A stretch of 64,000 bases of DNA from contig NZ_KB894405.1 in assembly GCF_000374445.1 (NCBI RefSeq), forward strand, positions 339,110-403,109, given 5' to 3'. The number at the start of each line of letters is the position of its first letter. The first letter of the stretch is position 1. The translations under genes were made by a program, and so were the position numbers. Below the pieces are notes generated by a model. That model was not told the DNA's origin. It searched no databases and worked only from the letters and a program-made list of their open reading frames with translations. This document shows, piece after piece, positions 3,637 to 64,000 of this stretch. This stretch comes from Actinokineospora enzanensis DSM 44649. GTDB lineage: Bacteria > Actinomycetota > Actinomycetes > Mycobacteriales > Pseudonocardiaceae.

Positions 3637-6600
3637 GTGAGTACCGGGAATCCGAACGCCGAGAACGAGCAGAAGCTGCTCGACTATCTCAAGCGTGCGA
3701 CCACCGACCTGCGTGAGGCCAAACTGGCGTTGCGGCGGGAACGGCAGCGCGACACCGAGCCGATCGCCATCGTCGGCATGGCCTGCCGCTACCCGGGCGG
3801 GGTGCGCTCCCCGGAGGACCTCTGGGACCTGGTCGCCACCGGCACCGACGCCGTCAGCACGTTCCCCACCGACCGCGGCTGGGCGCTGGACTCCCTCTAC
3901 GACCCGACGCTCGAACGGCCGGGCAGCACGAACACCCGCGAGGGCGGGTTCCTGCACGACGCCGCCGAGTTCGACCCGCTGTTCTTCGGCATCTCCCCGC
4001 GCGAGGCCCTGGCCATGGACGCCCAGCAGCGGCTGCTGCTGGAGACCGCGTGGACCGCGCTGGAACGCGCCGGGATCGTGCCGGAGTCGTTGCGCGGCAG
4101 CGCGACCGGCGTGTTCGCGGGCGTCATGTACCACGACTACGCGGGCCACGCGGCCGCCGGGAACCTGGTGTCCGGCCGGGTCGCCTACGCGCTCGGCCTG
4201 GAGGGCCCGGCGGTCTCGGTGGACACCGCCTGTTCGTCCTCTTTGGTCGCCCTGCACTGGGCAGCGCAGGCGCTGCGCCGCGGCGACTGCACGATGGCCC
4301 TGGTCGGCGGCGTGACCGTGATGGCCACCCCGGACACCTTCGTCTACTTCAGCGAGCAGCGCGGCCTGTCCGACGACGGCCGCTGCAAGGCTTTCGCGGG
4401 CGCCGCCGACGGCACCGGCTGGGGTGAGGGCGCGGGCGTGCTGGTCGTCGAGAAGCTCTCCGACGCGCATCGACTCGGCCACGAGGTGCTCGCGATCGTC
4501 CGCTCCGGCGCGGTGAACTCCGACGGCGCGTCCAGCGGCCTGACCGTCCCGAATGGACCAGCACAGCAGCGGGTGATTCGCAAGGCGCTGGCGGTGGCCG
4601 GGCTGACCACCGCCGATGTCGACCTGGTCGAGGGGCACGGCACCGGCACCAGACTGGGCGACCCGATCGAGGCACAGGCCCTGCTGGCCACCTACGGGCA
4701 GGACCGCGTCGAGCCGCTGCGGCTGGGGTCGTTGAAGTCGAACATCGGGCACACGCAGGCCGCCGCCGGGGTCGGCGGCGTGATCAAGGTCGTGCAGGCC
4801 ATCCGGCACGGGGTCATGCCAAGGACGCTGCACGTGGACACGCCCTCGCCGCACGTGGACTGGTCGGCGGGCGCGGTCGAACTGCTGACCGAGGCGCGGC
4901 CGTGGCCCGAGGTGGACCGGCCGCGCCGGGCGGCGGTGTCGTCGTTCGGCATCAGCGGCACCAACGCGCACGTGATCATCGAGCAGGCCGAGCCGATCGA
5001 GGCGGAGCAGGCTTCCGGGACCGTGCCGGTGGCCGCGTGGGCGTTGTCGGCAGACGCGCCGGACGCCTTGGCCGCGCAGGCTCGCGCGCTGCTTTATTCC
5101 ACAGTGGACGGATCGGCCGCGGACATCGCTCTGTCGCTGGTCACGACCCGGTCGCAGCACGACTACCGCGCCGTGGTCGTGGGCGCCGACGAGACCGAGC
5201 TGCGCGCCGGTCTGGCGGCATTGGCGGAGGACGCCGACGCGGCGAACCTGGTGCGGGACCGGCGGGGGATCGGACGCACGGCGTTCCTGTTCACCGGCCA
5301 GGGCGCCCAGCGCGCGGGCATGGGAGCGGGCCTGGCGGCCGCGTACCCGGTGTTCGCCGAGGAGTTCGCGAAGGTGTGCGCGGCACTCGCGCCGCACCTG
5401 GACGAGCCGTTGGATTTCGACGACGCGGAAGCGCTGGAGCAGACCGGGACCACGCAGCCCGCGATCTTCGCGATCGAGGTGGCGCTGTTCCGGCTGCTGG
5501 AGTCCTGGGGCGTGCGGCCGGACTGCCTGCTCGGGCACTCGATCGGCGAGATCGCGGCCGCGCATGTCGCCGGTGTGCTGTCGCTGGACGACGCGAGCCT
5601 GCTGGTGGCCTCCCGTGCCCGGCTCATGCAGGCCCTGCCGACCGGCGGCGCGATGGTGGCGGTCCGCGCGACCGAGGCCGAGGTGACGCCGCTGCTCACC
5701 GACGGCGTGGGCATCGCGGCGATCAACGGCCCCGACTCGGTGGTGGTGTCCGGGACCGAGGAGGCCGTGCAGGCGGTGGTCGAGCAGTTCACCGGCCGCC
5801 AGACCTCGCGGCTGCGAGTGTCGCACGCGTTCCACTCGCCGCTGATGGAGCCGATGCTGGCCGAGTTCGAGGTGATCGCGCGCAAGCTCACCTACCGGCG
5901 GCCGGAGATCCCGATCGTGTCCACGGTCGCCCCGGGCGTGGACATGACCGACCCGGAGTACTGGGTGCGCCAGGTCCGGTCGGCCGTCCGGTTCGACGAG
6001 GGGCTGCGCGCGCTGGTCGCCGACGAGGTCCGGACGTTCGTGGAGATCGGCCCGAGCGCGGTGCTCACCGCAGCCGGTCGGGCCGCGCTGGACACCGAGG
6101 ACTGCGAGGTCGCGTTCATCCCGGCCCTGCGCAAGGACCGCGAGGAAGCCCCGACCGTCGTCGCCGCCCTCGCCGCCCTGCACGCACGCGGCGTCCCCGT
6201 CGACTGGGCGGCCTTCTACCCGGGCGCCCGCCGCGTCGCCCTGCCCACCTACGCGTTCCGCCGCGACCACTACTGGCTCCCCGCCATCACCACGTCCGGC
6301 GACGCCTCCGGCCACGGCCAGCTCCCGGCCGATCACCCGATGCTCAGCGCCGTCGTGCGTGTGCCGGATGCCGACACGCTTGTGCTGACCGGCAGGCTCT
6401 CCGCCGCGACCGTGCCGTGGGTCGCCGATCACGTGGTGCTCGGATCGGTACTGCTGCCGGGCACCGCGTTCGTCGAACTCGCCCGCCGCGCCGCCGAGGA
6501 GGCAGGCTGCGCGGGCGTCGACGAACTCACGCTGGAAGCCCCGCTGGTGCTGGCCGAGGGCGCGTCGGTGCAAATCAGCGTGGAGGCCGAGGACGATGGC

Positions 6601-8859
6601 CGCCGCCCCTTTGCCATCCACTCCCGCACCGGGGACATCTGGACCCGGCACGCGAGCGGCTTCCTGGGCGGGGGAGCGGAGGCCGACTTCGACTTCGCCG
6701 AGTGGCCGCCCGCCGGTGCCGCCGAGGTCCCGCTGGGCGACCCGTACGAGCTGCTCGCCGAGCTCGGCTACGACTACGGCCCCGCCTTCCAGGGCCTGCG
6801 CGCGATGTGGCGGGCGGGCGAGGACGTGTTCGCCGAGGTGGCCCTGCCGGACGGCGCCGAGGCCCGCGACTACGGCCTGCACCCGGCCCTGTTCGACGCC
6901 GCCATGCACGCCAACCTGCTCGGCCCGGCGTCCGAAAACGACACAGCAGGCGAGGCCGCGCCCATGCTGCCCTTCTCCTTCTCCGGCGTCAGCACGCACG
7001 CGTCGGGCGCGGGCTCGGTCCGCGTGCGGGTGTCGCCCACCGGCCCGGACACGATCTCGCTCCGGATCGCCGACAACACCGGCGCCCCCGTGCTCACCGT
7101 CGCCGAACTCGCCGCCCGCCCGCTGACCGCCGACAAGCTGGCCGCCCGCCGCGACTCCCTGTTCACCCTGAACTGGGAACCCGCGACCGGCACCGACGCC
7201 ACCGCCGACCTCCGCAGGTTTGCGGTGTCCACTCAGGACGGACCGGTGCCGGGTGCGGCCCGCGCGGCCGCCGGACAGGTGCTCGCCGCCATCCAGGACG
7301 CGCTCGCCGAGCCCGACGGCCCCCGGCTCGCCGTGATCACCCGCCGGGCGGTCTCCGTCGCCGGGGAGGACGTCGACCCCTCGGTGATCGCCGTGTGGGG
7401 CCTGGTGCGGGCCGCCGAGGCGGAGAACCCGGGCCGGTTCGTGCTGGTCGACACCGACGACGACCCCGCTCCGGGCCTGGCCACCGGCGAACCCGAGGTC
7501 GCGGTCCGCGAAGGCCGCGCCTACGTCCCCCGCCTGCGTCCCGCGCAGGCCGCCGAGGGTGACCTGAACTGGAATCCCGACGGCACCGTCCTTATCACCG
7601 GCGGTACCGGTGGCCTGGGCGCCGTCGTCGCGCGTCACCTCGTGACCGAGCACGGCGTCCGGCACCTCCTCCTCGCCGGCCGTCGTGGCATCGACGCCCC
7701 CGGGGCCCAGGCCCTGCGCGACGAACTCACCGACCTGGGCGCGGACGTCACCGTCGCGGCCTGCGACGTCACCGACGCCGACTCGGTCCGCGCCCTCGTC
7801 GCCGACACGCGGCTCACCGCCGTGATCCACGCGGCGGGCGTGCCCTCCGGCGGCCGGGTCGAGTCGCTCACCGACACGGAGGTCGACCGGGTGTTCGCCC
7901 CCAAGGTCGACGGCGCCTGGCACCTGCACGAGGCCACCCGGGACCACGACCTCGCCGCCTTCGTCCTGTTCTCCTCCGCCGCGAGCACCATCCTCGCCGC
8001 CGGACAAGCCGCCTACGCCGCCGCCAACGGCTTCCTCGACGAACTGGCCCGCCACCGCCGCGCCAACGGCCTCCCGGCCACCTCGCTCGGCTGGGGCGCC
8101 TGGGCCGAGGACGGCGGCATGGCGGGCGAGCTCGACGACGCCGACCGGCGCAGGCTCAGGCGCCTGGGCACCCCGCCCATGGCCACCGCGGACGCGTTGC
8201 GGCTGCTCGACGTGTCGCTCGTCAGCAGCGAGCCGGTGCTGACGCCGATGACCCTCGATCTCGCCGCGCTGCGCGCCCGGACCGACCTGCCGCAGGCACT
8301 GCGCGGTCTGGTCCGGACTGCGGCGCCGCGGCGGGCGGCCGGGCGGCCTGACGGCGCGGTCGCCGCCCGGCTCGCCGCGCTGCCCACGCAGGCCCGTGAG
8401 CCCTACCTGCTGGACGTGGTCGCCGAGCAGGTCGCGGCCGTGCTCGGGTTCGCGTCGGCCGCGGTCGTCGAGCCGGACCGGGCCTTCCAGGAGATGGGTT
8501 TCGACTCGCTCACGGCCGTCGAGCTGCGCAACCACCTGGGCGCGCTGACCGGTCTGAAGCTGACCGCGACCGTCGTGTTCGACCACCCCACGCCCGCCGC
8601 GCTGGCCCGCAGGCTGCACGAGCTGCTCGGTGCCGTCGGCGGCGCGGCCGATCCGGTGCTGGCCCAGATCGACCGCCTGGAGGTCCTGCTCGCCCAGGTC
8701 ACCGGGTCGCTCAACGGATCAACCGCCAAGGTCACGGCCCGGCTCGACGCGCTCGTTCGCAAATGGACAGACGGCAATACCGAGCAGCAGACAGATGTGG
8801 GCAGCGCTACCGACGACGAGCTTTTCGCCCTGCTGGACGACGAATTGGGCACGGCATGA
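3637..8859 (+). CDS. Type I modular PKS, one module: KS-AT(malonyl)-DH-KR-ACP
   Basis: About 1740 residues. It begins with an N-terminal coiled docking helix ([16 protein letters not shown]) and not with a loading domain. KS: active-site Cys about 199 in VDTACSSS, plus both catalytic His motifs (EGHGTGT, KSNIGH). AT: Ser about 635 in GHSIGE, and HAFH about 730, the malonyl-CoA signature. DH: His about 932 in an intact HxxxGxxxxP, and DAAMH later. [10 protein letters not shown] near 1321 with the catalytic Lys, Ser, Tyr and Asn all visible. ACP: Ser about 1624 in GFDSLT. A C-terminal docking tail ends in [15 protein letters not shown]. The KR has neither the B-type LDD (it reads PSG) nor the A-type Trp, so its stereochemistry is not predictable. 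I chose GTG 3637 because AGGTGG lies 8 nt upstream; GTG 3625 is the alternative. The stop overlaps the next start (ATGA). The expected product unit is an alpha,beta-alkene. Confidence 0.95.
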
Positions 8860-11800
8860 ACGGGAACGCCATGGGCAACGAGGACAGGCTTCGCGACTAC
8901 CTGAAGCGCGCCACCACCGATCTGCAGCAGGCCCGGCGCAGGCTGCGCGAGCTGGAGGCCAGGGACACCGAGCCGATCGCCGTGGTCGGCATGAGCTGCC
9001 GCTACCCAGGCGGTGCCGCCACCCCGGACGAGCTGTGGCGGCTGGTCGACGAGGGCCGGGACGTGATCGGCGAGTTCCCGGCCGACCGCGGCTGGGACGT
9101 CGAGGGCGTCTACGACCCGACCCCGGAGCGGCCCGGCAAGACCTACACCCGGCACGGCGGCTTCCTCTACGACGCGGCCGGTTTCGACGCCGAGTTCTTC
9201 GGCATCAGCCCGCGCGACGCCCGCCGGGCCGACCCGCAGCAGCGGATCCTGCTGGAGGCGTCCTGGGAGGCCGTCGAGCGCGCCGGGATCGACCCGCGCT
9301 CGCTCAAGGGCAGCCCGACCGGCGTCTACGCGGGCGTCATGTACCACGACTACAGCGGCGGCAGCCCGGACGGCAGCCTCGTCTCCGGCCAGGTCTCCTA
9401 CACGCTCGGCCTGGAGGGCCCGTCGATCTCCGTCGACACCGCCTGCTCGTCCTCCCTGGTCGCCCTGCACCTCGCCGCCCAGGCCCTGCGCCGCGGCGAC
9501 TGCACCCTCGCGCTGGCGGGCGGTGTCGCGGTGATGGGCACGCCCGAGATGTTCATCGACTTCTGCAGCCGCCGCGGCCTGGCCGCCGACGGGCGCAGCA
9601 AGTCCTTCTCCGACGACGCCGACGGCACCTCGTGGGCCGAGGGCGTCGGCGTGCTGGTGCTGGAGCGCCTGTCCGACGCCCAGCGCAACGGCCACCGGAT
9701 CCTGGCGGTCGTGCGCGGTTCTGCGGTCAACCAGGACGGTGCCAGCAACGGCTTCTCCGCCCCCAACGGCCCGTCCCAGGTCCGGGTGATCGAGGCCGCG
9801 CTGGCCGACGCCGGGCTCACGGTGTCCGATGTGGACGCGGTGGAGGCGCACGGCACCGGCACCGCGCTGGGCGACCCGATCGAGGCACAGTCATTGCTGG
9901 AGACCTACGGCACCCGCACCGCGGGCGTGCCGCTGCTGCTCGGTTCGATCAAGTCCAACATGGGCCACCCGCAGGCCGCCGCCGGGGTCGCGGGCGTGAT
10001 CAAGATGATCCAGGCGCTGCGGCACGCCCGGCTGCCCAAGACCCTGCACCTGGGCACCCCGTCGTCGCACGTGGACTGGTCGGCAGGCGCGGTCGAGCTG
10101 CTGGCCGAGTCCCGTGACTGGCCTGCGGTGGACCGGCCTCGGCGCGGCGCCGTCTCGTCGTTCGGCGTGAGCGGCACCAACGCGCACGTGATCCTCGAAC
10201 AGGCGCCGGAAACCGAAGAACCCGAGGCCATCGAGTCCGTGGTCGGCCCGTTGGTGATCTCTGCCAAGACCGTCGCCGCGCTGGCGGACGCCGCCGGTCG
10301 GATCGCCGCGCACATCGAGGGCTCGGCCGACCCCCTGCCCGACATCGCGCACACGCTTGCCACCGGCCGCAGCCGCTTCGACCAGCGTGCCGTCGTGATC
10401 GCCCAGGACCGCGACCAGGCCGCCGCCGCACTGCGCGAGCTGGCCGCCGGTGGGTCGCGCCCGGACGTGGTCACCGGCACCGCCGACACGCGCGGCAAGA
10501 CCGTGTTCGTCTTCCCCGGCCAGGGCTCGCAGTGGACCGGCATGGCGACCCGACTGCTCACCCAGTCGCCGGTGTTCGCCGCGCGCATGGCCGAGTGCGA
10601 CGCCGCGCTGCGCGAGTTCACCGACTGGTCCGTCCTCGCCGTCCTGCACGGCGAGCCGGGCACCCCGCCCGAGGACCGGGTCGACGTCGTGCAGCCGATG
10701 CTGTGGGCGGTCATGGTGTCGCTGGCCGAGGTCTGGCGCGCGCACGGCGTCGAGCCGGACATGGTGATCGGCCACTCGCAGGGCGAGATCGCCGCCGCCA
10801 CCGTCGCCGGATCCCTGTCCCTCCAGGACGGTGCGCGCGTGGTCGCCCTACGCAGCAAGGCGATCGGCGAGAAGCTCGGCGGTCTGGGTGGCGGCATGCT
10901 CGCAGCGGGCCTGCCCGCGACCGAACTGGCCAAGCGACTGTCCGCATGGGACGGTCGGATCTCGATCGCCGCCGACAACGGCGCGTCCTCCGCCGTGCTC
11001 TCCGGCGACGGGGACGCGCTCGACGAACTGCGTGACCAGTTGGTCGAGGAGGGCTTACGGGCCAAGCGGGTCCCGGTGGACTACGCCTCGCACTCCGCGC
11101 ACGTCGAGCACCTCGCCGACCGCCTGTTCGCCGACCTCGGTCCGATCACGCCGCAGGCAGGCGCGGTCGCCATGACCTCGACGGTGAACGAGGAACCGAT
11201 CGGCGCGGACACGGTCGACGCCCGCTACTGGTTCGACAACCTGCGCCGCACGGTCCGCTTCGCGCCGGTCGTCGCGCGCCTCGCGGCGGCGGGCTACACC
11301 CGGTTCGTCGAGATCAGCCCGCACCCGGTGCTGAACATGAGCATCCAGGAGACGCTCGACGATGGCGGCCACACCGGCGTGGTCGTCGGCACCCTGCGCC
11401 GCGCGGAGGGCGACCTGCCCCGGTTCGCCACCTCGCTGGCCGAGCTGCACGTGCGCGGCGGGGCCGCCGACTGGGCCGCGCTGGTCCCGGGTGCCCGCCC
11501 GGTCGAGCTGCCCACGTACCCGTTCCAGCACAAGCGTTTCTGGCTCGACGACGAGGGCGCCGACCAGCTGGCCGTGTTGTCCGAGGCCGCCGCAACCGAC
11601 CAGGCTTTCTGGCAGGACGTGGCTGAGGGTGACGTGGACGCGCTCGCCGTCCGGTTGGGCGTGGAGGCCGCGCCACTGGCCGAGGTCGTGCCCGCGCTGG
11701 CGGCCTGGCACCGACAGGGCACCGAACTGTCCACCGTGGACTCGTGGCGTTACCGCGTCTCCTGGGTCCCGCTCACCGGCGTGCCCGCCTCCGGCCTGAC

Positions 11801-19700: not shown

Positions 19701-22700
19701 CGTCCAACGGCCTCACCGCCCCCAACGGCCCCGCCCAGCAGCGGGTCATCCGGGCCGCGCTCGCCGACGCGGGCCTCGTCCCGACCGACGTGGACGCCGT
19801 CGAGGCGCACGGCACCGGCACCAAGCTCGGCGACCCCATCGAGGTCCAGGCCCTGCTGGCCACCTACGGCAACCGCGCCGACGCGGACGCGCCGCTGTGG
19901 ATCGGCTCGGTCAAGTCCAACCTCGGCCACACCCAGGCCGCCGCCGGTGCCGCGGGCGTGATCAAGATGATCATGGCCATGCGGCACGGCGAGCTGCCCG
20001 CGACCCTGCACGTGGGCACCCCGTCCAGCGAGATCGACTGGGCGTCCGGGGCCGTGCGCGTGCTGGCCGAGCCGGTGAAGTGGCTGCCCAACGGGCACAC
20101 CCGACGCGCGGGCGTCTCCTCCTTCGGCGTGAGCGGCACCAACGCGCACGTCATCCTGGAGGAGGGCGACCGGCGCGAGGTCACCGGCGGGACGGACTAC
20201 GACGGTCCGGTCGTCTGGCCGGTGTCCGGGCGCGGTGCGGCCGCATTGAAGGCGCGGGCCGAACAGCTCATGTCCTATGTGGATGAGGAGCCGGACGGCA
20301 GCCTGGCCGACATCGGCCTGTCGCTGGCCACCACCCGCAGCGCGTTCGAGCGTCGGGCGGTGCTGATCGGGAACCGGTCGCCGCAGTTCGTGCGGGGGCT
20401 GGCGGCTCTGGTGGACGAGGAGGAGGTGCGCGGGGTCGTCACCGGTGTGGCGACGGCCGGTGGGCGCACGGCGTTCCTGTTCGCGGGCCAGGGCTCGCAG
20501 CGGACCGGCATGGGCGCCGGGCTGGCCGCCCGGTTCCCGGTGTTCGCCGCCGCCTACGACGAGGTGTGCGCCGAGATCGATCGCCACCTTGACCGCCCGA
20601 TCCGCTCGGTCATCGACGGCGACGGTCCGGAACTGGCCGAGACCCGCTACACCCAGCCCGCGCTGTTCGCCATCGAGGTCGCGCTGTTCAGGTTGGTGCG
20701 GTCCTGGGGTGTGAAGCCGGACGTGCTGGTCGGCCACTCCATCGGCGAGATCGCGGCGGCGCACTGCGCGGGCGTGCTCTCCCTGGCCGACGCGGCCCGA
20801 CTGGTGACCGCGCGCGGCGCCCTCATGCAGGCACTGCCCACAGGCGGCGCCATGGTCTCCCTGGACGCCACACCGGAAGCGGTGCGCTCGGCCTTCAGCG
20901 AGTCTGCTTTGGACAACTCCACCTTGGGCAACACGGTGGACATTGCGGCGGTGAACGGGCCAAGCGCGGTGGTGATCTCCGGGGACGAGGCGGCGGTCAC
21001 CGAGATCGCGGCGAGGTTCGAGCGAGTCAAGCGTTTGCGCGTCTCGCACGCGTTCCACTCGCGACTGATGGACCCGATGCTCGCCGAGTTCCGCGCCGTC
21101 GCCGAGAGCCTCACCTACGCCGAGTCCCGGCTGCCGGTGATCTCCACCGTGACCGGCGAGCCTGCCGACCTGGCCACCGCCGAGTACTGGGTCGCCCAGG
21201 TCCCGGCCTGCGTCCGCTTCGCCGACGCGGTCACCAGGGCCGCGGCCGACGGCGTCACCCGGTTCCTGGAGCTTGGCCCGGACACCACGCTCACCGCCAT
21301 GGCCGAGAACTGCTTCGACGAGCCCAAGGTCCTGGCCGCGCTGTCGCACAAGGAACAGGACGAGGCCGTCGCCGCCCTCACCGGCGTGGCGAAGCTGCAC
21401 GTCAGCGGCGTCGACGTCGACTGGACGGCGGTCTACTCGCCGACCGGGGCACGCACGGTCGCACTGCCGACCTACCCGTTCCAGCGGCGCCGGTTCTGGC
21501 TGGAGAGCACGACCGGCGCGCCCGGCCAGGAGGACCACCCGCTGCTCGGCACGGCCACCGAACTGGCCGACTCGCGCGGCCTGCTGTTCAGCGGACGCCT
21601 GTCCGCGGGCAGCCTGCCGTGGCTGGCCGACCACGTCGTCGGCGGCTCGGTCCTGTTCCCCGGCACCGGTTTCGTCGAGATGGCGATCCGCGCAGGCGAC
21701 CGGGTCGGCTGCCCGCACCTGGAGGAGCTGACCCTGGAGTACCCGCTCGTGCTGCCGGACCGCTCCGGCGCGCGGGTGCAGTTCGCGATCTCGGGTCCCG
21801 AGGACGGCGGGGCCCGGTCCTTCACGGTCCACTCGCGACCCGAAGGCGCCGCCGATGGCGTGCCGTGGACCCGACACGCCATCGGCAGGCTCACCAAGTC
21901 GGCCACCGCGGCGGCGTTCGACCTTTCTGCCTGGCCGCCCGCCGGTGCCGAGCAGGTGCGCCTGGAAGGCACCTACGAGGAGCTGGCCGCCGACGGTCTG
22001 GCGTATGGTCCCGCCTTCCGCGGCCTGGTCGCCGCCTGGAAGCGCGACGGCGAGGCGTTCGCCGAGATCCAACTTCCGACGACCGTCACCGACACCGACC
22101 ACTACGGCGTCCACCCGGCCCTGCTCGACGCCGCTCTGCACACCATCGGCGTCGCGGGCGCGGCCGGGACCGAGCCGTCCCTGCCGTTCGCCTGGGCGGG
22201 CGTCCGACTGCACGCAGTCGGCGCAACGACCTTGCGCGTACATGTTCGCCCTTCGGGGACAGGAGGATCCGGGGTGGGAGGACTGGGGGAAGGAAGTACA
22301 GTGTCACTCGACATCGCCGATGCCACGGGCGCGCCCGTCGCCTCGGTGGACTCCCTGCTGCTGCGCCCGATGTCGGCGCAACCGCAGGCGGCCCCGACCG
22401 GCACCGACTCGATGTTCCGGCTGACCTGGGAACGGGCTGATCTCGACGCGGTCGCGGAGGTGACCGACTGGACCGTGGTGGGGCCCGACCCCTACGGCCT
22501 CACCGACGCCTTGGGCGCCACGGCAGTCGCTGATCTCGCCGAAGCCGGTGGTGGCCTCCTGGTCCTGTCGGCTGGTGCGGTGGGCGAGGATGCCACTGCC
22601 GCCCGCGCCGAGTTGCATCGCGTGTTGGGCCAGCTCACCACCTGGCTGACCCGGTCCGATGGCGGTTCCCTCCTGGTCGTCACCCGAGGCGCGGTCGCCA

Positions 22701-57880: not shown

Positions 57881-58662
57881 CGGTCAGGCTGTCGGACACC
57901 GTTGCGGCGGAGTGGACGAAGCTCCGGTCGGTCCGTACCACATGGACAGTCGCCATCGCGGCCATGGTGGTGAGTGTCGGCCTCTCCGTCCTGTTCTGCC
58001 TGGTGACAGCACAGGACTACGCCAACCTGCCAGCAGAACAACGCCTCGACTTCGACGCGGCGGGCACCAGCCTCGTCGGCCTCAACCTGGGCCTGGTCCT
58101 GGTCGCCATCCTCGGTGTACTCGCCGTATCGACCGAGTACACGACCGACATGATGCGACTCACGCTCGCGATCACCCCGCGCCGGGGACGAGTCCTGCTC
58201 TCGAAGGCTCTGGTAGTGGGGCTGTTCGCGTTCGTCCTGGGCGCGGTGTTCGCGGTGGCGGCTTTCTCCATCGGGCAGGCGCTTCTGGGCACGAATCCCG
58301 ACATTCATGCCTTGGCTCTCGGGGATCCAGGAGTGCTGCGCGGCATGTTCGGATGGGGCGCGGAAATGGCCGCGTTCGCCTTGATCGCCTTCTCCGGTGC
58401 GGTGATCACCCGTAGCTCGGTGGGATCGGTCGTGCTGACGATCGCCCTCATCTTCGCCCCGGCAATCGTGGGCGCGTTCCTGCCTGCCTGGGTACGCACG
58501 GACATCCTCACCTATTTCCCGGCTTCGGCAGCCGAACAACTGAGCGCGGCACACGCCCCGGACGGCCCAGGCCCGGTGATCGGCGGCACAGTGCTGCTCG
58601 GTTGGGTCGCCCTCGCGCTTGTCCTGGCCCGGACCCGCCTGATCGGCCGCGACTCCGGCTAG
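57877..58662 (+). CDS. ABC-2 type permease
   Basis: The 261-residue membrane protein has an N-terminal amphipathic helix (VAAEWTKLRSVRTTWTVAIA), the entry pattern of BcrB/NatB-like permeases, and six predicted membrane helices. Between helices 2 and 3 is STEYTTDMMRLTLAITPRRG, a conserved loop with its S-x-E-x-x-x-x-M pattern that contacts the ATPase. It is coupled to the ATPase gene by an ATGA overlap. The TAG stop falls in the CTAG (58659-58662) that begins a 167-bp near-palindrome, so the 3' end of the gene is the left terminus of that repeat. Confidence 0.9.
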   Translation: MTVRLSDTVAAEWTKLRSVRTTWTVAIAAMVVSVGLSVLFCLVTAQDYANLPAEQRLDFDAAGTSLVGLNLGLVLVAILGVLAVSTEYTTDMMRLTLAITPRRGRVLLSKALVVGLFAFVLGAVFAVAAFSIGQALLGTNPDIHALALGDPGVLRGMFGWGAEMAAFALIAFSGAVITRSSVGSVVLTIALIFAPAIVGAFLPAWVRTDILTYFPASAAEQLSAAHAPDGPGPVIGGTVLLGWVALALVLARTRLIGRDSG

Positions 58663-58825
58663 TGGTGCGACTCAGAACGTCGGCCGTGTATCGGCGGGTC
58701 CACGGCGTGGCTGACGGTGCCGCCGGGACGGCCTCGTACTGGATGTACTTGGTCGTTTCGGCGGTGCCGTCAGGCACGTCGTGGGCGGGTCGAGACGCGG
58801 TCGACGTTCTGGGTCGCACCACTAG
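58659..58825. repeat. 167-bp near-palindrome (long inverted repeat), MITE-like or structured 3' UTR
   Basis: Positions 58659-58733 and 58751-58825 are inverse complements with 60 of 75 matches, starting and ending in CTAG. The outer 13 nt (CTAGTGGTGCGAC) are exact. The 17-nt centre contains a further GTAC...GTAC pair. Of 15 mismatches, 11 are transitions. All 11 are G-U compatible in the + strand transcript, leaving only four unpaired positions in a 75-bp RNA stem. There is no T-tract. The element touches the permease stop and precedes the cobalamin riboswitch. It may be a terminator/stabiliser of the exporter mRNA, or a decayed palindromic mobile element. No open reading frame of substance lies inside. 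Confidence 0.8.
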
Positions 58826-58900: not shown

Positions 58901-59042
58901 CCCCATCGGTCGAGGTGTTACATTCCCTGCGTCATGCCAACTGAATAGTCACCACCCGGGACGGGGAAGCCGGTCGAAGTCCGGCACTGTCGCGCAACCG
59001 TAGGCCATGTGAGTGGCGAGTCGGATCACCGTGCGGGTGGGG
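58901..59042 (+). promoter_or_regulatory. Cobalamin (B12) riboswitch aptamer
   Basis: The conserved core is plain. GGGGAA (58963-58968) precedes GCCGGTCGAAGTCCGGC (58969-58985), the GCC-G-A-A-TCC-type hairpin. Then come CACTGTCGCGCAACCGTA (58985-59002), matching the B12-box C-x-CTGTC-CGC-AAC-GT pattern, and GAGTCGGATCACC (59018-59030). P1 can be formed by CCCCA (58901-58905) with TGGGG (59038-59042), extended by CGGT/ACCG. Coenzyme B12 binding should shut down the operon that starts at 59140. The 5' arm is shorter than in many aptamers, so a variant class is possible. Confidence 0.85.
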
Positions 59043-59060
59043 TGTCTGTCGTACCGCTGT

Positions 59061-59122
59061 CGCGAGAACAGGGGTGACGAGGCGGTGTCGCGCACCGGTC
59101 TTCCCTCCTCCCTGTCCTCGCG
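59061..59122 (+). promoter_or_regulatory. Probable riboswitch expression-platform hairpin
   Basis: CGCGAGAACAGGG (59061-59073) can pair with CCCTGTCCTCGCG (59110-59122) at 12 of 13 positions. The stem ends 4 nt before the TGAGGA ribosome binding site (59127-59132) of the first gene. Competition between this stem and the aptamer or ribosome binding site is the likely switch; there is no terminator T-run, so translational control is favoured. Confidence 0.5.
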
Positions 59123-59139
59123 GGATTGAGGATGTGGCC

Positions 59140-61833
59140 GTGAGTCTGGCGTTGCGCAAGGTCGCCCAGCCGTCGATCGCTGTGTCGGCACTGGCCGTTA
59201 TCGGGCTCCTCTGCGCGAGTACGCCGGTGGTCGCTGCCCCCGAACGGGACGGGGCCGTGGCCGTCGCACGGTGGCTGGCCAGGCAGGTCGACGCGGACGG
59301 CACGGTGCGCAACCCGCTCGGCGGAGCCCTGCCCGATCACGGCCTGATGATCGACCTGGTCTACGCCTCCTACGCGGCAGGCGCGGGCGAGCTGGCCCAA
59401 CCGATCCTGCGCTACCTCGACGACCAGCGCCACGCCGGCGAGTACTTCGCGTTCGGCGCGCTGTACCAGAACCCGAAGTACGACGCGGTGATCGACGGTG
59501 GCTACGCGGCCAAGACGTTGGTGGCGGCCGAGGTGGCGGGGCGGGACCCCCGGCACTTCGGCGGGTGGGACCTGCTCGCCGAGACCAAGGGCTCGATCCC
59601 GCGGTCCGGGCCGGACAAGGGGCGGGTCAGTGTCCACACGAAGAACCCGGAGCTGGCCGACGCCGTCGACAACAACACCAACACCTTCGGCCAGTCCCTC
59701 GCCGTCATCGGCCTGGCGGGGGTGCGCGAGGTCGACCAGCTCGCCGTCGACCGGCTGGTGGGCCAGCAGTGCGTCGAGGGGTACTTCCGGATCCTGTACT
59801 CCTTCGTCCCGACCACCGAGACCGGCGACGACGTGCTGCCCGGTGGGTACAAGCTCTCCAGCTGTGAGGAAGGCAAGCCGTACGACCTGTCCGAGCCGGA
59901 CAACGACGCCACGGCCATGGGACTGTCCGCGCTGCTGGCGGCCCGTGCGGCGGGTGCCCGGGGAGTCGACGGGCCGATCGACGGCGCGGTGCGGTTCCTG
60001 CGCGGGGCACAGGACGCGTCCGGTGGCTGGGGTGGTGGTGTCACCACCGAGGCGCCCAACACCAACAGCACGGGTCTGGTCGTGCAGGCCTTGGCCGACG
60101 CCGGGGGATCCGACGCGCAGGTGCGGACAGGGCTCGCATATCTGAAGGCGGCGCAGGTGAACCAGGCGGATGCCGGTACCAGGTTGGCCGAGGACATCGG
60201 GGCCATCGCCTACGACCCGCAGCAGTACCGGGACTCCAGGCAGACCGGTATGTCCAGTAAGGACACGTGGGTGCGTGCGGGAGCCCAGGCCGCGCTCGGT
60301 CTCGCGCAGGTCGGTTTCCACGACCTCACCCAGGGCAAGGTCCCGCCGACCGACACCCCGACCTCGCCCGAACCCACTACGACCACAACTACGACCACGA
60401 CGACCACCGGCCCGGCGACCGGCCTGCCGCCCGCGCCGCAGACCATCGTGATCACCAAGGACGGCACCACCCGGACGATCACCCGGCGGGTGCCCGCCCC
60501 GGTCAGCCGCCGGGCCGGGACCCCGGCGCCGCCACCGAACTCCGCACCCGGTGTCCCGCTGGCACCGCCCACCCCGGCGCAGGCCCCGGAGCCGGAGACC
60601 CCGGTCGGTCACGCGGCCGCGTACCTCGCGGGCAGGCTCGTCGACGGCGACCACGTCGAGGTCACCCAGGACGGCAGGACATTCGTCGACTACGACGCCA
60701 CCGCGGACGTCGTCCTGGCCCTGCACGCGCTCGGCGGCCAACCGGACGCGGTCGACCGCGCGACCCGGTTCCTGCTCACCCCCGCGTCCATCGACGCTTA
60801 TGCGCACGGCGTCCCGTACGAGCCCGGCCCCGCCGCCTACGCCGAACCGCTGGCCAGACTCCGGCTGGTCGCGGGCTTCCAGCGGGACACCGGCGAGTAC
60901 GACCAGGTGAGCACCGACCTGGACGCCGCCCTCGCGGGCCTGCGCTCGGACGCCGGGATCTTCACCGACACCGGCCAGTTCGCCGACGCCTCCACCGCCG
61001 TGCAGCGGCACGTGTGGGCGACCACGGCCACCATCGCCGCCTCCGACCACGCCGCGCTGGCCGCGGTGGACTCCTTGGCCGACCGCCAGTGCCGGGACGG
61101 CACGTTCCCGCAGAACATGACCACCGCCGACTGCGCGACCGGCGACCTCGCCGCCACCGCGTCCGCCGTCATCGCCCTGGACGCGGCCCGCGCGTCCACC
61201 CAGCCGACAGACCCATCCCCGACGGGCCCATCCCCGACAGAACCGTTGCCGGGCAATCAATCCGCGTCCGTCGAGATCCCGGCGAACCGAGCCCCGGCCG
61301 AATGGTCGACCAAGCGGACCACCGCCCTGGTGGCCGCCGCGGCGGCGCTCAACGCCCGGACGGCGACGGACGGCACCGTCCGTGGCCCCGATGGCGACAT
61401 CGACGTGCCCATGACCGCGGCCATCGCCGGTGGACGGCAGTTCGTCGGTCTCGACATCGCCGCCACGACCCGAGCCCTCGCCGACGAGCCGCGCTCCCGC
61501 TCGACGGACATCGCCCCCGACAACGCGATGGGCGAGGTGGCCCGCCTCGACCAGGAAGCATCGGACGGGAACGTCCTGACGGACCTTGTCACGGCGGCGC
61601 CCGCGGTCGCGGGGCGGTCCTGGGCCGGGGCGGAGCACGCCCCGGTGGTGCCCGCCGTGCGGCTCCCGTTGACCGGTGCCGACTCCGTCGCTGCGGTCGC
61701 CCGTTCGTCCGACCGGGTGTCCCCGTGGCTCGGGGTCGGGCTGGTCGGCCTCGGTTTCCTGCTGGCCGTGGCGGCCGTGTTCGGCACCCGGCTGGTGACC
61801 CGGAACTCGACACCGAAGGTGGTCTCCCGATGA
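59140..61833 (+). CDS. Surface-anchored alpha/alpha-repeat protein under a B12 riboswitch
   Basis: About 897 residues. GTG 59140 follows TGAGGA and opens a signal peptide (hydrophobic core about residues 12-28). Residues about 38-400 contain repeats of the prenyltransferase/terpene-cyclase type: DNNTNTFGQSLAVIGLA, then GGWGGGVTTEAPNTNSTGLV with VQALADAGG. Similar repeats occur in the alpha domain of mammalian intrinsic factor and transcobalamin. A Thr/Pro linker at about 407-427 includes a run of Thr codons. A second repeat region spans about 485-690 (TADVVLALHALGG; AVQRHVWATTATIAASDHAA). A third short region lies before a single C-terminal membrane helix (about 862-882) and basic tail. It thus sits on the outer face of the membrane. 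The riboswitch and downstream EcfT suggest corrinoid capture. The stop overlaps the next start. Confidence 0.82.
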   Translation: MSLALRKVAQPSIAVSALAVIGLLCASTPVVAAPERDGAVAVARWLARQVDADGTVRNPLGGALPDHGLMIDLVYASYAAGAGELAQPILRYLDDQRHAGEYFAFGALYQNPKYDAVIDGGYAAKTLVAAEVAGRDPRHFGGWDLLAETKGSIPRSGPDKGRVSVHTKNPELADAVDNNTNTFGQSLAVIGLAGVREVDQLAVDRLVGQQCVEGYFRILYSFVPTTETGDDVLPGGYKLSSCEEGKPYDLSEPDNDATAMGLSALLAARAAGARGVDGPIDGAVRFLRGAQDASGGWGGGVTTEAPNTNSTGLVVQALADAGGSDAQVRTGLAYLKAAQVNQADAGTRLAEDIGAIAYDPQQYRDSRQTGMSSKDTWVRAGAQAALGLAQVGFHDLTQGKVPPTDTPTSPEPTTTTTTTTTTTGPATGLPPAPQTIVITKDGTTRTITRRVPAPVSRRAGTPAPPPNSAPGVPLAPPTPAQAPEPETPVGHAAAYLAGRLVDGDHVEVTQDGRTFVDYDATADVVLALHALGGQPDAVDRATRFLLTPASIDAYAHGVPYEPGPAAYAEPLARLRLVAGFQRDTGEYDQVSTDLDAALAGLRSDAGIFTDTGQFADASTAVQRHVWATTATIAASDHAALAAVDSLADRQCRDGTFPQNMTTADCATGDLAATASAVIALDAARASTQPTDPSPTGPSPTEPLPGNQSASVEIPANRAPAEWSTKRTTALVAAAAALNARTATDGTVRGPDGDIDVPMTAAIAGGRQFVGLDIAATTRALADEPRSRSTDIAPDNAMGEVARLDQEASDGNVLTDLVTAAPAVAGRSWAGAEHAPVVPAVRLPLTGADSVAAVARSSDRVSPWLGVGLVGLGFLLAVAAVFGTRLVTRNSTPKVVSR

Positions 61834-62432
61834 GAAGGTTCCCGTCCCTGATCGCGGCCGCGGCCTTGGCGGCCGGGCTGGTCGCGGCGCTGCCCACGGC
61901 GGCGTCCGCGATCGACCCGACCAAGGGCTACGCCGGGGTCTGCGCAGGCGCCGACGCCCTGACCGGGGTCACGGTCGTCATCGACTTCAACGAGCTGGAC
62001 GGCAACGGCGGCACCGCCGCGCCGACCATCACCCGGTGCTCGCCCGACCCCGGTCCCGGCACACCGCGCACCGGCATCAAGGCCCTGCAGGACGCGGGCA
62101 TCGCGATCACCGGCAGCACGCAGTGGGGGCTCGGGTTCGTGTGCAGGCTGGAGGGCAGGCCGTCGGCCACCGAGACCCTGCCGCGCACCACGAACCCCAC
62201 CTACAAGGAGTCCTGCGCGCGGACCCCACCCGCCAACGCCTACTGGGGTTACTGGTACGCCGACGGTTCCGGCACGACCTGGACCTACAGCAGCTACGGC
62301 GCCCTCAACCGCAACGTGATCCCCGGCGGTTTCGAGGGTTGGTCGTTCTCGCTGAACAAGACCGCGACCACGAACCCGGCCCCCGGCGTGACCCCGACCC
62401 GCCCGGCGTCGACCGGCGGCTTCGTGCGATGA
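61830..62432 (+). CDS. Small secreted protein, paralogue of the next gene
   Basis: The 200-residue precursor has a signal peptide (MRRFPSLIAAAALAAGLVAA, cleavage after ASA near 27). The mature part of about 173 residues has no membrane anchor. Landmarks are GVTVVIDFNEL, LQDAGIAITGSTQWGLGFVC, RLEGRPSATETLP, CARTPPANAYWGYWYADG and FEGWSFSLN. The small YW-YW plus GWSF pattern recalls the beta domain (DUF4430) of transcobalamin-like proteins, but that match is by eye only. Four Cys suggest disulfides. It is coupled upstream and downstream by ATGA overlaps. A freely diffusing or protein-bound corrinoid-binding subunit is the suggested role. Confidence 0.72.
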   Translation: MRRFPSLIAAAALAAGLVAALPTAASAIDPTKGYAGVCAGADALTGVTVVIDFNELDGNGGTAAPTITRCSPDPGPGTPRTGIKALQDAGIAITGSTQWGLGFVCRLEGRPSATETLPRTTNPTYKESCARTPPANAYWGYWYADGSGTTWTYSSYGALNRNVIPGGFEGWSFSLNKTATTNPAPGVTPTRPASTGGFVR

Positions 62433-63409
62433 CGACCAGGTTCGCGGCGCTCGCGGCGGTCACCGCGCTGGTGACGGTCGCGAGCGCCGCCCCGGCGTGG
62501 GCGATCGACCAGGGCAAGGGCCTGCCCGGGTTCTGCCCCGGCCCCACCGGCGTGACCGTCGTCGTCGACTTCCAGAGGCTGGGCGGCATCACCATCGTCC
62601 GCTGCTACCCGAACGCCGACCCCGGAACCGGGCTGGACGCGCTCAAGGGGGCCGGTTTCCAGATCGCGGGCGCGGCGCGGTGGGGCGAGGGGTTCGTCTG
62701 CCGGATCGAGAACCGGCCGTCCGCGGTGGAGACGCTGCCGATCGCCGGGCACGAGGACTACCGCGAGGGGTGCGTCAACACCCCGCCCGCCACCGGGTAC
62801 TGGTCGTACTGGCATGCGAGCAATGGCTGCGCGTGGACCTACAGCCAGTGGGGCGTCAAGAACCGGCAGTTCGTCCAGGGCGGTTTCGAGGGTTGGTCCT
62901 TCTCGCTCAACGCCACCACGACGTCCAACCCGCAGCCACGCGTCGCCCCCGTCCGTCCGGGCACCGCGGGCCAGCCCTGTGCGGAGGCGGCGGAACCGCC
63001 GCCGAACTCCGACAACCCGGCCGAGCGGCAGCCCGAACCGGCGGCCGCCGCACCCGTGCCGGGCGCCACCGCCCAACCCGGGGTCCGATCGGACGGCGGG
63101 AACGCCGCGCCGGGACAGCCCGGTACGAACGTTCCCGGCACGGCCGTCCCCGATGCGCCGGTGCAGGCCGGGGACGCGCCCGGTGGTGCGTTGCCGCCGC
63201 CTCGGCCGCGGACCGCGTCGGCCGCGCCGGACCCGGCGGCGAACATCGCCTTCACCGGCGGCGAGGACAGGCCGGACGTCAACCGGGTGCTTGAGGACCA
63301 GTCCGGTGCCGACGGTGCCGCGCCCTGGTTCGCCGCCGGGGCCGTGCTGATGCTGGCCGCCGCGACGGCCTACCTCGGTGTGCGGCGCAGACGCGCCGGG
63401 GAGCGGTAG
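62429..63409 (+). CDS. Membrane-anchored paralogue with Pro/Ala-rich stalk
   Basis: The 326-residue precursor has a signal peptide (MTTRFAALAAVTALVTVASA, cleavage after WA near 26). Residues about 27-165 repeat the domain of the preceding gene: GVTVVVDFQRLGG, ARWGEGFVCRIENRPSAVET, CVNTPPATGYWSYWHA, FEGWSFSLN. Then come about 120 residues of Pro/Ala/Gly-rich stalk, a single membrane helix (about 297-318) and an Arg-rich cytoplasmic tail (RRRRAGER). It is a tethered version of the soluble paralogue, presumably by tandem duplication. No LPxTG sorting signal is seen. GTG of the next gene overlaps its TAG stop. Confidence 0.75.
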   Translation: MTTRFAALAAVTALVTVASAAPAWAIDQGKGLPGFCPGPTGVTVVVDFQRLGGITIVRCYPNADPGTGLDALKGAGFQIAGAARWGEGFVCRIENRPSAVETLPIAGHEDYREGCVNTPPATGYWSYWHASNGCAWTYSQWGVKNRQFVQGGFEGWSFSLNATTTSNPQPRVAPVRPGTAGQPCAEAAEPPPNSDNPAERQPEPAAAAPVPGATAQPGVRSDGGNAAPGQPGTNVPGTAVPDAPVQAGDAPGGALPPPRPRTASAAPDPAANIAFTGGEDRPDVNRVLEDQSGADGAAPWFAAGAVLMLAAATAYLGVRRRRAGER

Positions 63410-64000
63410 TGCCGGGCGCCACCTACTACCTGCCGCGCGACCTGCACCCGATGGCCTGGTGGGTGTGGGCGCTCGGCCTCGCCACGGCCGCGAGCCGCAC
63501 CACGAACCCGTGGTTGCTGGGGCTGATCCTGGCGGTGGCCGGGTTCGTGGTGGTGGCCCGGCGTGGCGAAGCGCCGTGGGCGCTGGCGTTCCGGATGTAC
63601 CTGTACCTCGGCGCGGTCGTCGTCGGGTTCCGGGTGTTCTTCCGGCTGGTGTTCGGCGGCGGCGAGGGTGCCACGATCGTCCTGCGGCTGCCGGAGATCC
63701 CGCTGCCGGAGTGGGCGGCGGGCATCCGCCTGCTCGGCGACGTGTCGGCGGAGTCGCTGCTCGGCGGGTTCTACGACGGGCTGCGGCTGGCGACCATGGT
63801 GGTGTGCCTCGGCGCGGCCAACGCGCTGGCCAACCCGAAGCGGCTGCTGAAGTCCATGCCGCCCGCGCTCTACGAGGTCGGCACCGCCGTGGTGGTCGCG
63901 CTGTCGGTGTTCCCGCAGCTGGCCGAGAGCGTGGTGCGGGTCCGGCGCGCCCGCAGGCTGCGCGGCGGCGACGGCCGTCGGTTCCACGCGCTGCGGGCGA
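63409..64000 (+). CDS. EcfT-type ECF transporter membrane subunit (3' end outside window)
   Basis: The first 197 residues are visible. GTG 63409 overlaps the previous stop (TAGTG). Four or five membrane segments, starting MAWWVWALGLATAASRTTNP, lead to LATMVVCLGAANALANPKRL, a typical EcfT/CbiQ core. The coupling motif is beginning to show as VRVRRARRLRGGDGRR, consistent with the Ala-Arg-Gly motif that contacts the ECF ATPases. EcfT proteins join two ATPases and a substrate-binding S component to import vitamins. Those genes should lie just downstream. Its riboswitch suggests the ligand is cobalamin or a corrinoid. Confidence 0.82.
   Translation, partial: MPGATYYLPRDLHPMAWWVWALGLATAASRTTNPWLLGLILAVAGFVVVARRGEAPWALAFRMYLYLGAVVVGFRVFFRLVFGGGEGATIVLRLPEIPLPEWAAGIRLLGDVSAESLLGGFYDGLRLATMVVCLGAANALANPKRLLKSMPPALYEVGTAVVVALSVFPQLAESVVRVRRARRLRGGDGRRFHALRA

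Follow-up and report, generated by a model that had tools for sequence, protein, structure and literature searches.

A Predicted Corrinoid Uptake Operon with Split, Transcobalamin-Like Surface Proteins in Actinokineospora enzanensis

At the end of a 64,000-nucleotide stretch of the genome of Actinokineospora enzanensis DSM 44649 (hereafter, the window), a cobalamin riboswitch precedes four overlapping genes, here called P1, P2, P3, and EcfT, which are followed outside the window by the rest of an energy-coupling factor (ECF) importer and by a further secreted protein. We put at about four in five the probability that this operon is responsible for an adenosylcobalamin-repressed uptake of corrinoids, in which a two-jaw capture at the cell surface would feed the ECF importer. 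A chance origin of the operon is very unlikely because the same gene set recurs in related loci. The operon is an actinobacterial variant of a kind that was predicted earlier, not a new kind; what is new here is a divergent beta family, missed by Pfam and tied to intrinsic factor by its predicted structure, together with a split form containing an apparently degenerate toroid, beta-alpha fusions, and the linkage to riboswitches.

The Operon and Its Importer

The host genome is 8.1 Mb, and the operon lies on contig 3 of the assembly (G000); positions past the window are given in the coordinates of locus L001, where the nearest named relatives belong to actinobacteria, Actinokineospora being one example. 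The riboswitch, of the adenosylcobalamin type (58937..59082, plus strand), matches the full length of the Rfam model RF01482 (model positions 1-149) with 46.4 bits (E 3.7e-7 in a 1-kb search), which is under the curated gathering score of 50, and it is absent from a gathering-level search of the whole window. A covariance model made from relatives, with the window excluded, places it at 58931-59078 with 121.6 bits (E 2e-24); this model is based on 27 of 65 pattern-picked sequences, all of which come from the related loci themselves. These loci, 77 in number, came out of one scan of named genomes and stem from the 80 best among 343 confirmed places that matched a single peptide pattern, a sample that leans towards P3-like proteins. 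By its match in sequence and structure, the element belongs to Rfam clan CL00101, and the switching itself is predicted.

A preliminary description of the window had placed a B12 riboswitch ahead of four overlapping genes, and these two models and the gene coordinates bear this out. All four genes are on the plus strand, and from P1 to EcfT the start of each overlaps the preceding stop: P1 (59140..61833, 897 amino acids) encodes a secreted, membrane-anchored protein with two alpha/alpha toroid domains; P2 (61830..62432, 200 amino acids), a small secreted protein without an anchor, predicted to be of the transcobalamin-type beta-grasp fold; P3 (62429..63409, 326 amino acids), a paralogue of P2 with a proline-rich stalk and a C-terminal transmembrane anchor; and EcfT (63409..64000), a protein of 367 amino acids whose gene runs past the window to L001 7622. 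Outside the window, EcfT is followed by a fused EcfA-EcfA’ double ATPase (L001 about 7619-9220), a putative S component (L001 9217-10137), and the third alpha protein, which is secreted, about 340 residues long, and has a single alpha domain (L001 about 10134-11156).

The identification of the fourth gene as EcfT stands, since it matches PF02361 (Pfam CbiQ) with 52.4 bits over its full length (E 7e-14; cut-off 25). An ecfA gene, looked for past position 64000, is present in the form of the double ATPase. In this protein, PF00005 is matched in two stretches, the best NCBIfam model is ECF_ATPase_1 (278.5 bits, under the equivalog cut-off of 315), and the match to TIGR01166 cbiO (222.9 bits) is above the cut-off of 211.8. 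The case of the S component is less clear-cut: a membrane protein is found in the place expected for it, and this position in the operon fits, but its matches to named families, of the folate and riboflavin types, are all under their cut-offs (TIGR04518, 23.5 of 60 bits; PF07155, 21.5 of 26.7 bits).

The Beta Proteins

P2 and P3 are 55% identical across the domain, and a transmembrane stretch is present in P3 and not in P2, in agreement with the proposal of two paralogous small secreted proteins, one of them anchored. A structure search with a whole fusion protein from a related locus (L079, see below) matched the toroid alone, all of the 50 rows listed lying on the toroid, with intrinsic factor absent and the beta part uncovered; the beta domain of P3 (62504..62962, plus strand) was therefore folded separately (pLDDT 88.5, pTM 0.85). 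The structures nearest to this model are intrinsic factor, haptocorrin, and transcobalamin. Its elements (E17-22, E30-35, H43-49, E54-57, E61-68, E100-105, and E128-133) come in an order that is compatible with the SLBB fold, given in a passage of PMC1949818 as S1-S2-helix-inserted strands-S3-S4-S5. A fold of the transcobalamin type is inferred for P2 from its paralogue.

The relationship to DUF4430, which the preliminary description had also proposed, was borne out by profile comparison but not by Pfam. In an hhalign comparison based on 174 rows, a few of them repeats, the family matched the DUF4430 set at 94.8% (E 5e-8; controls at most 14.6, against 49.2); a smaller alignment gave 86% (E 5e-6), and the step from the DUF4430 set to Transcobalamin-1 gives E 0.01. 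The Pfam model itself (PF14478) has no match above its cut-off in the host genome, in P2 and P3, or in 29 members of the family, for which reason the beta proteins are not filed under it. A search of PDB sequences with the beta profile gave nothing meaningful (best E 0.055, an antibody), and a search of 20 stretches for intermediates between the beta family and DUF4430 gave none convincing for both profiles (best DUF4430 E 0.1). NCBIfam’s SCO2322_fam (NF040672) is matched distantly by P2 (E 1e-5, 25.7 bits) and P3 (E 2e-6, 28.4 bits), the curated cut-off being 85.

The beta model has matches in 101 of 197 genomes of the class, many of which span the second half of the model alone. Half domains also occur in 14 of the 20 stretches just mentioned (L141-L160), where the motif of the beta family is reduced to its second half (YWSYW ... 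G ... VEGWRF), the cysteine-bearing first half being absent. A separate observation concerns a possibly Streptomyces-like genome of the same class (G315), in which a Pfam DUF4430 gene lies right behind an alpha gene and ends the same kind of operon (L139 10370-11134).

The Alpha Proteins

P1 contains two homologous alpha/alpha domains, which match one profile with 358 and 211 bits, and its C-terminus has a transmembrane stretch and an LPLTG motif, so that the idea of a membrane-anchored protein with two alpha/alpha-repeat regions holds. In the first domain (59248..60336, plus strand), all 14 invariant polar residues are kept, whereas in the second (60601..61386, plus strand), only 4 of the 14 are seen and the C-terminal part is unaligned; the residues were defined on an alignment without second P1 domains, so this contrast is partly built in. 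On the basis of these residues, the second toroid is apparently degenerate. Since the toroids of P1 and the beta domains of P2 and P3 are encoded by separate genes, with anchors on P1 and P3, the barrel-like and beta-like parts are indeed on separate surface proteins.

In fold, the alpha domain is a toroid of the kind seen in terpene cyclases and prenyltransferases. In a Foldseek search, terpene cyclases came out on top, and transcobalamin (7qbe_A), which has the same class of toroid fold, came at rank 39 (E 3.4e-3). A search of PDB sequences with the alpha profile put squalene-hopene cyclases first; the 56 sequences up to E 1 included neither intrinsic factor nor transcobalamin. The likeness of the barrel to that of intrinsic factor, as first described, extends to the fold class but not to the nearest relatives, and one of the toroids of P1 looks degenerate. 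NCBIfam’s SCO2321_fam (NF053823, curated cut-off 300) is matched by P1 (E 1e-22, 80.7 bits) and by the third alpha protein (E 3e-27, 95.4 bits).

Linkage, Fusions, and Anchors in Related Loci

EcfT, the double ATPase, and the S component are all present in 70 of the 77 related loci, as they are in the window’s own locus. The relatives’ riboswitch model gave 147 matches, of which 116 with at least 68.6 bits were taken as strong (115 without the window’s copy in L001), while the remaining 31, with no more than 42.2 bits each, were not counted. Nearly all of the strong matches (113 of 115) are followed within 600 nucleotides by an alpha or beta domain, and at least one strong match is present in 68 of the loci. 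Among the nine without a counted riboswitch, five (L075, L087, L092, L123, and L135) are cut upstream by the end of a contig; the other four (L078, L096, L103, and L127) are not, and one of them, L103, has a weak match (40.5 bits). Rfam’s own models reach gathering level in five of the seven loci tested, L062 and L064 being the exceptions. Two or more riboswitches occur in some loci, each serving one gene group; several Amycolatopsis, with their divergent alpha gene, are examples. Two further strong cobalamin riboswitches on the minus strand, at L107 5905-6121 (95.8 bits) and L118 76-293 (90.5 bits), point away from the alpha/beta operon.

In five loci (L079, L100, L101, L108, and L122), a beta and then an alpha domain are found in a single reading frame, the beta domain of L101 being cut by the end of the locus. 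A sixth frame with both domains, in L078, is a P1 fragment running into a P2-like protein and is excluded from this count. The L079 fusion gene is divergent from the ECF run and has a riboswitch of its own (105 bits); the model of its protein is confident overall (pLDDT 92.3, pTM 0.85), and in the alignment behind it (A2), the alpha rows have their first 56-79 residues misplaced onto beta columns. In a tree of 62 beta domains, the P2-like proteins and the P3-like proteins each have a clade of their own (100/99 and 99/94). The fusion label changes three times on this tree, on which the bootstrap is unsettled and the fused L100 row has a very long branch; two of these changes are forced by well-supported branches.

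A C-terminal transmembrane stretch is present in 31 of 33 proteins with two alpha domains (2 of the 31 with an L[PA]xTG-like motif), in 31 of 72 with a single alpha domain (all 31 with such a motif), and in 72 of 134 with beta domains only (3 with the motif); by the same simple C-terminal test, the remaining alpha and beta proteins have no anchor. These counts suggest that surface attachment is common, whether by the membrane or, probably, by sortase.

How the Operon Might Work

The cobalamin riboswitch points to a corrinoid as the ligand. When adenosylcobalamin is low, the operon would open, and when the cell is replete, the riboswitch would shut it off. P1 and P3 would be held at the membrane, with P2 and the third alpha protein either released or held by a partner. 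The toroids (domain 1 of P1 and the downstream alpha protein) and the transcobalamin-type beta domains of P2 and P3 would then be the jaws which, binding to each other, close on the corrinoid at the cell surface, as occurs in transcobalamin, before it is passed to the S component of the importer encoded by the same gene run. A gene for corrin synthesis, CbiC (242 bits), is present in the host genome, as are 15 matches to the B12-binding domain, of which 11 exceed the cut-off; on this genomic evidence, the host may be a salvager rather than an auxotroph. A more elaborate version, which we hold with rather more doubt than belief, is that of a receptor assembled in two parts by its ligand, in which split toroids and beta domains would close before the hand-over to the ECF importer, the degenerate toroid of P1 would be a docking module instead of a site for binding, and the old P2-like and P3-like paralogues would differ in their preference for corrinoids.

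Other explanations fit the evidence less well. One is that the alpha and beta proteins bind, for import, another B12-related substance, such as cobalt, dimethylbenzimidazole, or an incomplete corrinoid. B12 riboswitches also govern precursor genes, EcfT is in the CbiQ “cobalt transport” family, and the matches of the S component to known families are weak; however, the beta domain of P3 is nearest to intrinsic factor, haptocorrin, and transcobalamin, and large two-jaw proteins would seem oversized for cobalt or a small base, which makes this explanation unlikely. The alpha proteins might instead be secreted enzymes resembling class II terpene cyclases or glycosidases, with the beta proteins serving some other use, given that terpene cyclases are the best toroid matches in both sequence and structure. 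The motif of these cyclases is DxDD. At the corresponding site (alignment A6), 33 of 36 rows have DxD followed by A, S, or T, 3 have H first, and none has DxDD; this, along with the anchors, the linkage to riboswitch and ECF genes, and the natural fusions to a beta domain, renders an enzymatic role very improbable.

A third possibility is a haem uptake system, since a haem oxygenase, an HtaA-like protein, and a periplasmic-binding-protein importer are encoded downstream (L001 14265-19900), and one ECF system is reported to take up haem (PMC7299338). However, a search of the other 77 loci for four of the downstream proteins found none of them (within a reach of at most 10 kb from the beta gene), and the riboswitch is of the cobalamin type. 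Haem was consequently rejected as the ligand, and we consider this the least probable of the three. As for the neighboring genes in their own right, which comprise permease and ATPase genes as well as the haem oxygenase, the periplasmic binding protein, and the HtaA-like protein (below cut-off), they are probably a haem uptake cluster beside the operon.

Comparison with Known Systems

In transcobalamin, the toroid is N-terminal and the beta-grasp domain C-terminal, with the ligand between the two, according to the passages found in PMC1796856; DUF4430 is mentioned in PMC4350170, which deals with the animal binders. In the window, the two parts are separate proteins, and in the fused relatives, they are in the reverse order to that of transcobalamin, beta then alpha. 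It is because of these separate genes and beta-then-alpha fusions that the window proteins are not members of the intrinsic factor/transcobalamin family; by analogy, they would work like its members, and cobalamin binding is predicted. The beta family here differs further from the animal carriers in having four invariant cysteines, and the alpha domains in being nearest to terpene cyclases.

Burroughs et al. (2007) described bacterial transcobalamin-like SLBB (DUF4430) domains that are secreted or anchored and that occur alone or fused N- or C-terminally to toroids, along with paralogous pairs, Gram-positive anchors, and operons with CbiO and CbiQ, and they proposed a role in B12 scavenging (passages of PMC1796856). 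The window’s operon resembles these systems in its secreted or anchored beta domains, toroids, paralogous pair, and CbiO/CbiQ genes. As far as those passages go, the clade was named for low-GC Gram-positives, planctomycetes, and euryarchaea, and the bacteria surveyed usually lacked key enzymes of B12 synthesis, whereas the branch described here is actinobacterial, is missed by the DUF4430 model, carries its toroid in two copies, one of which is apparently degenerate, and is found in a host with a corrin synthesis gene. The statement that Gram-positive B12 capture is poorly described must therefore be qualified: capture of this general kind was predicted in 2007 in the same paper, and no experimental test of bacterial transcobalamin-like capture appears among the matches listed in open-licence PMC papers. 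In the literature searched, extracellular corrinoid capture by Gram-positive bacteria is thus predicted rather than tested.

The SCO2321 and SCO2322 families are distant relatives, all scores being far below the curated cut-offs; both are named without a function, and no literature on SCO2322 was found among open-licence PMC papers. The importer resembles ECF vitamin transporters, such as ECF-CbrT for B12, in having EcfT, two ATPase domains, and a putative S component, and differs from the ECF-CbrT type in the large extracellular receptor proteins of its operon and in the weak similarity of its S component to named families. In acI freshwater actinobacteria, an ECF module lies behind cobalamin riboswitches, and alpha/beta receptor proteins are not described in the passages found (PMC5301498). 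The surface lipoproteins by which Bacteroides, a Gram-negative, reportedly captures B12 (PMC6143338) have in common with the window’s operon the capture of B12 at a bacterial surface, predicted here.

What emerges is a wide actinobacterial family with separate jaws, natural fusions, riboswitches before gene groups, and small secreted proteins. Owing to these separate jaws, fusions, and riboswitches, the assembly of alpha, beta, and ligand, the preference for lower ligands, and the hand-over to the ECF importer become testable. The family also bears on the origin of the animal B12 carriers because the carriers have the same beta fold and because bacteria contain split as well as fused forms. 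If the proposed capture is true, the single-chain fusions, which have arisen or been lost at least twice on the beta tree, would show how a carrier like intrinsic factor can be built from such parts.

Other Features of the Window

Between ABC genes and the riboswitch lies an imperfect hairpin of about 170 bases (58659-58825), the 24-base ends of which pair at 23 places. Among eukaryotic microRNA models, it matches MIR918 with 68 bits (gathering score 268), probably through its shape alone; its appearance is that of a small mobile element with inverted repeats or of an attenuator. Elsewhere, on the minus strand, two matches to ASpks, a tuberculosis antisense RNA family (4669-4737 and 19841-19915, with 74 and 52.5 bits), possibly stem from the conserved coding sequence of a polyketide synthase and not from an RNA gene.
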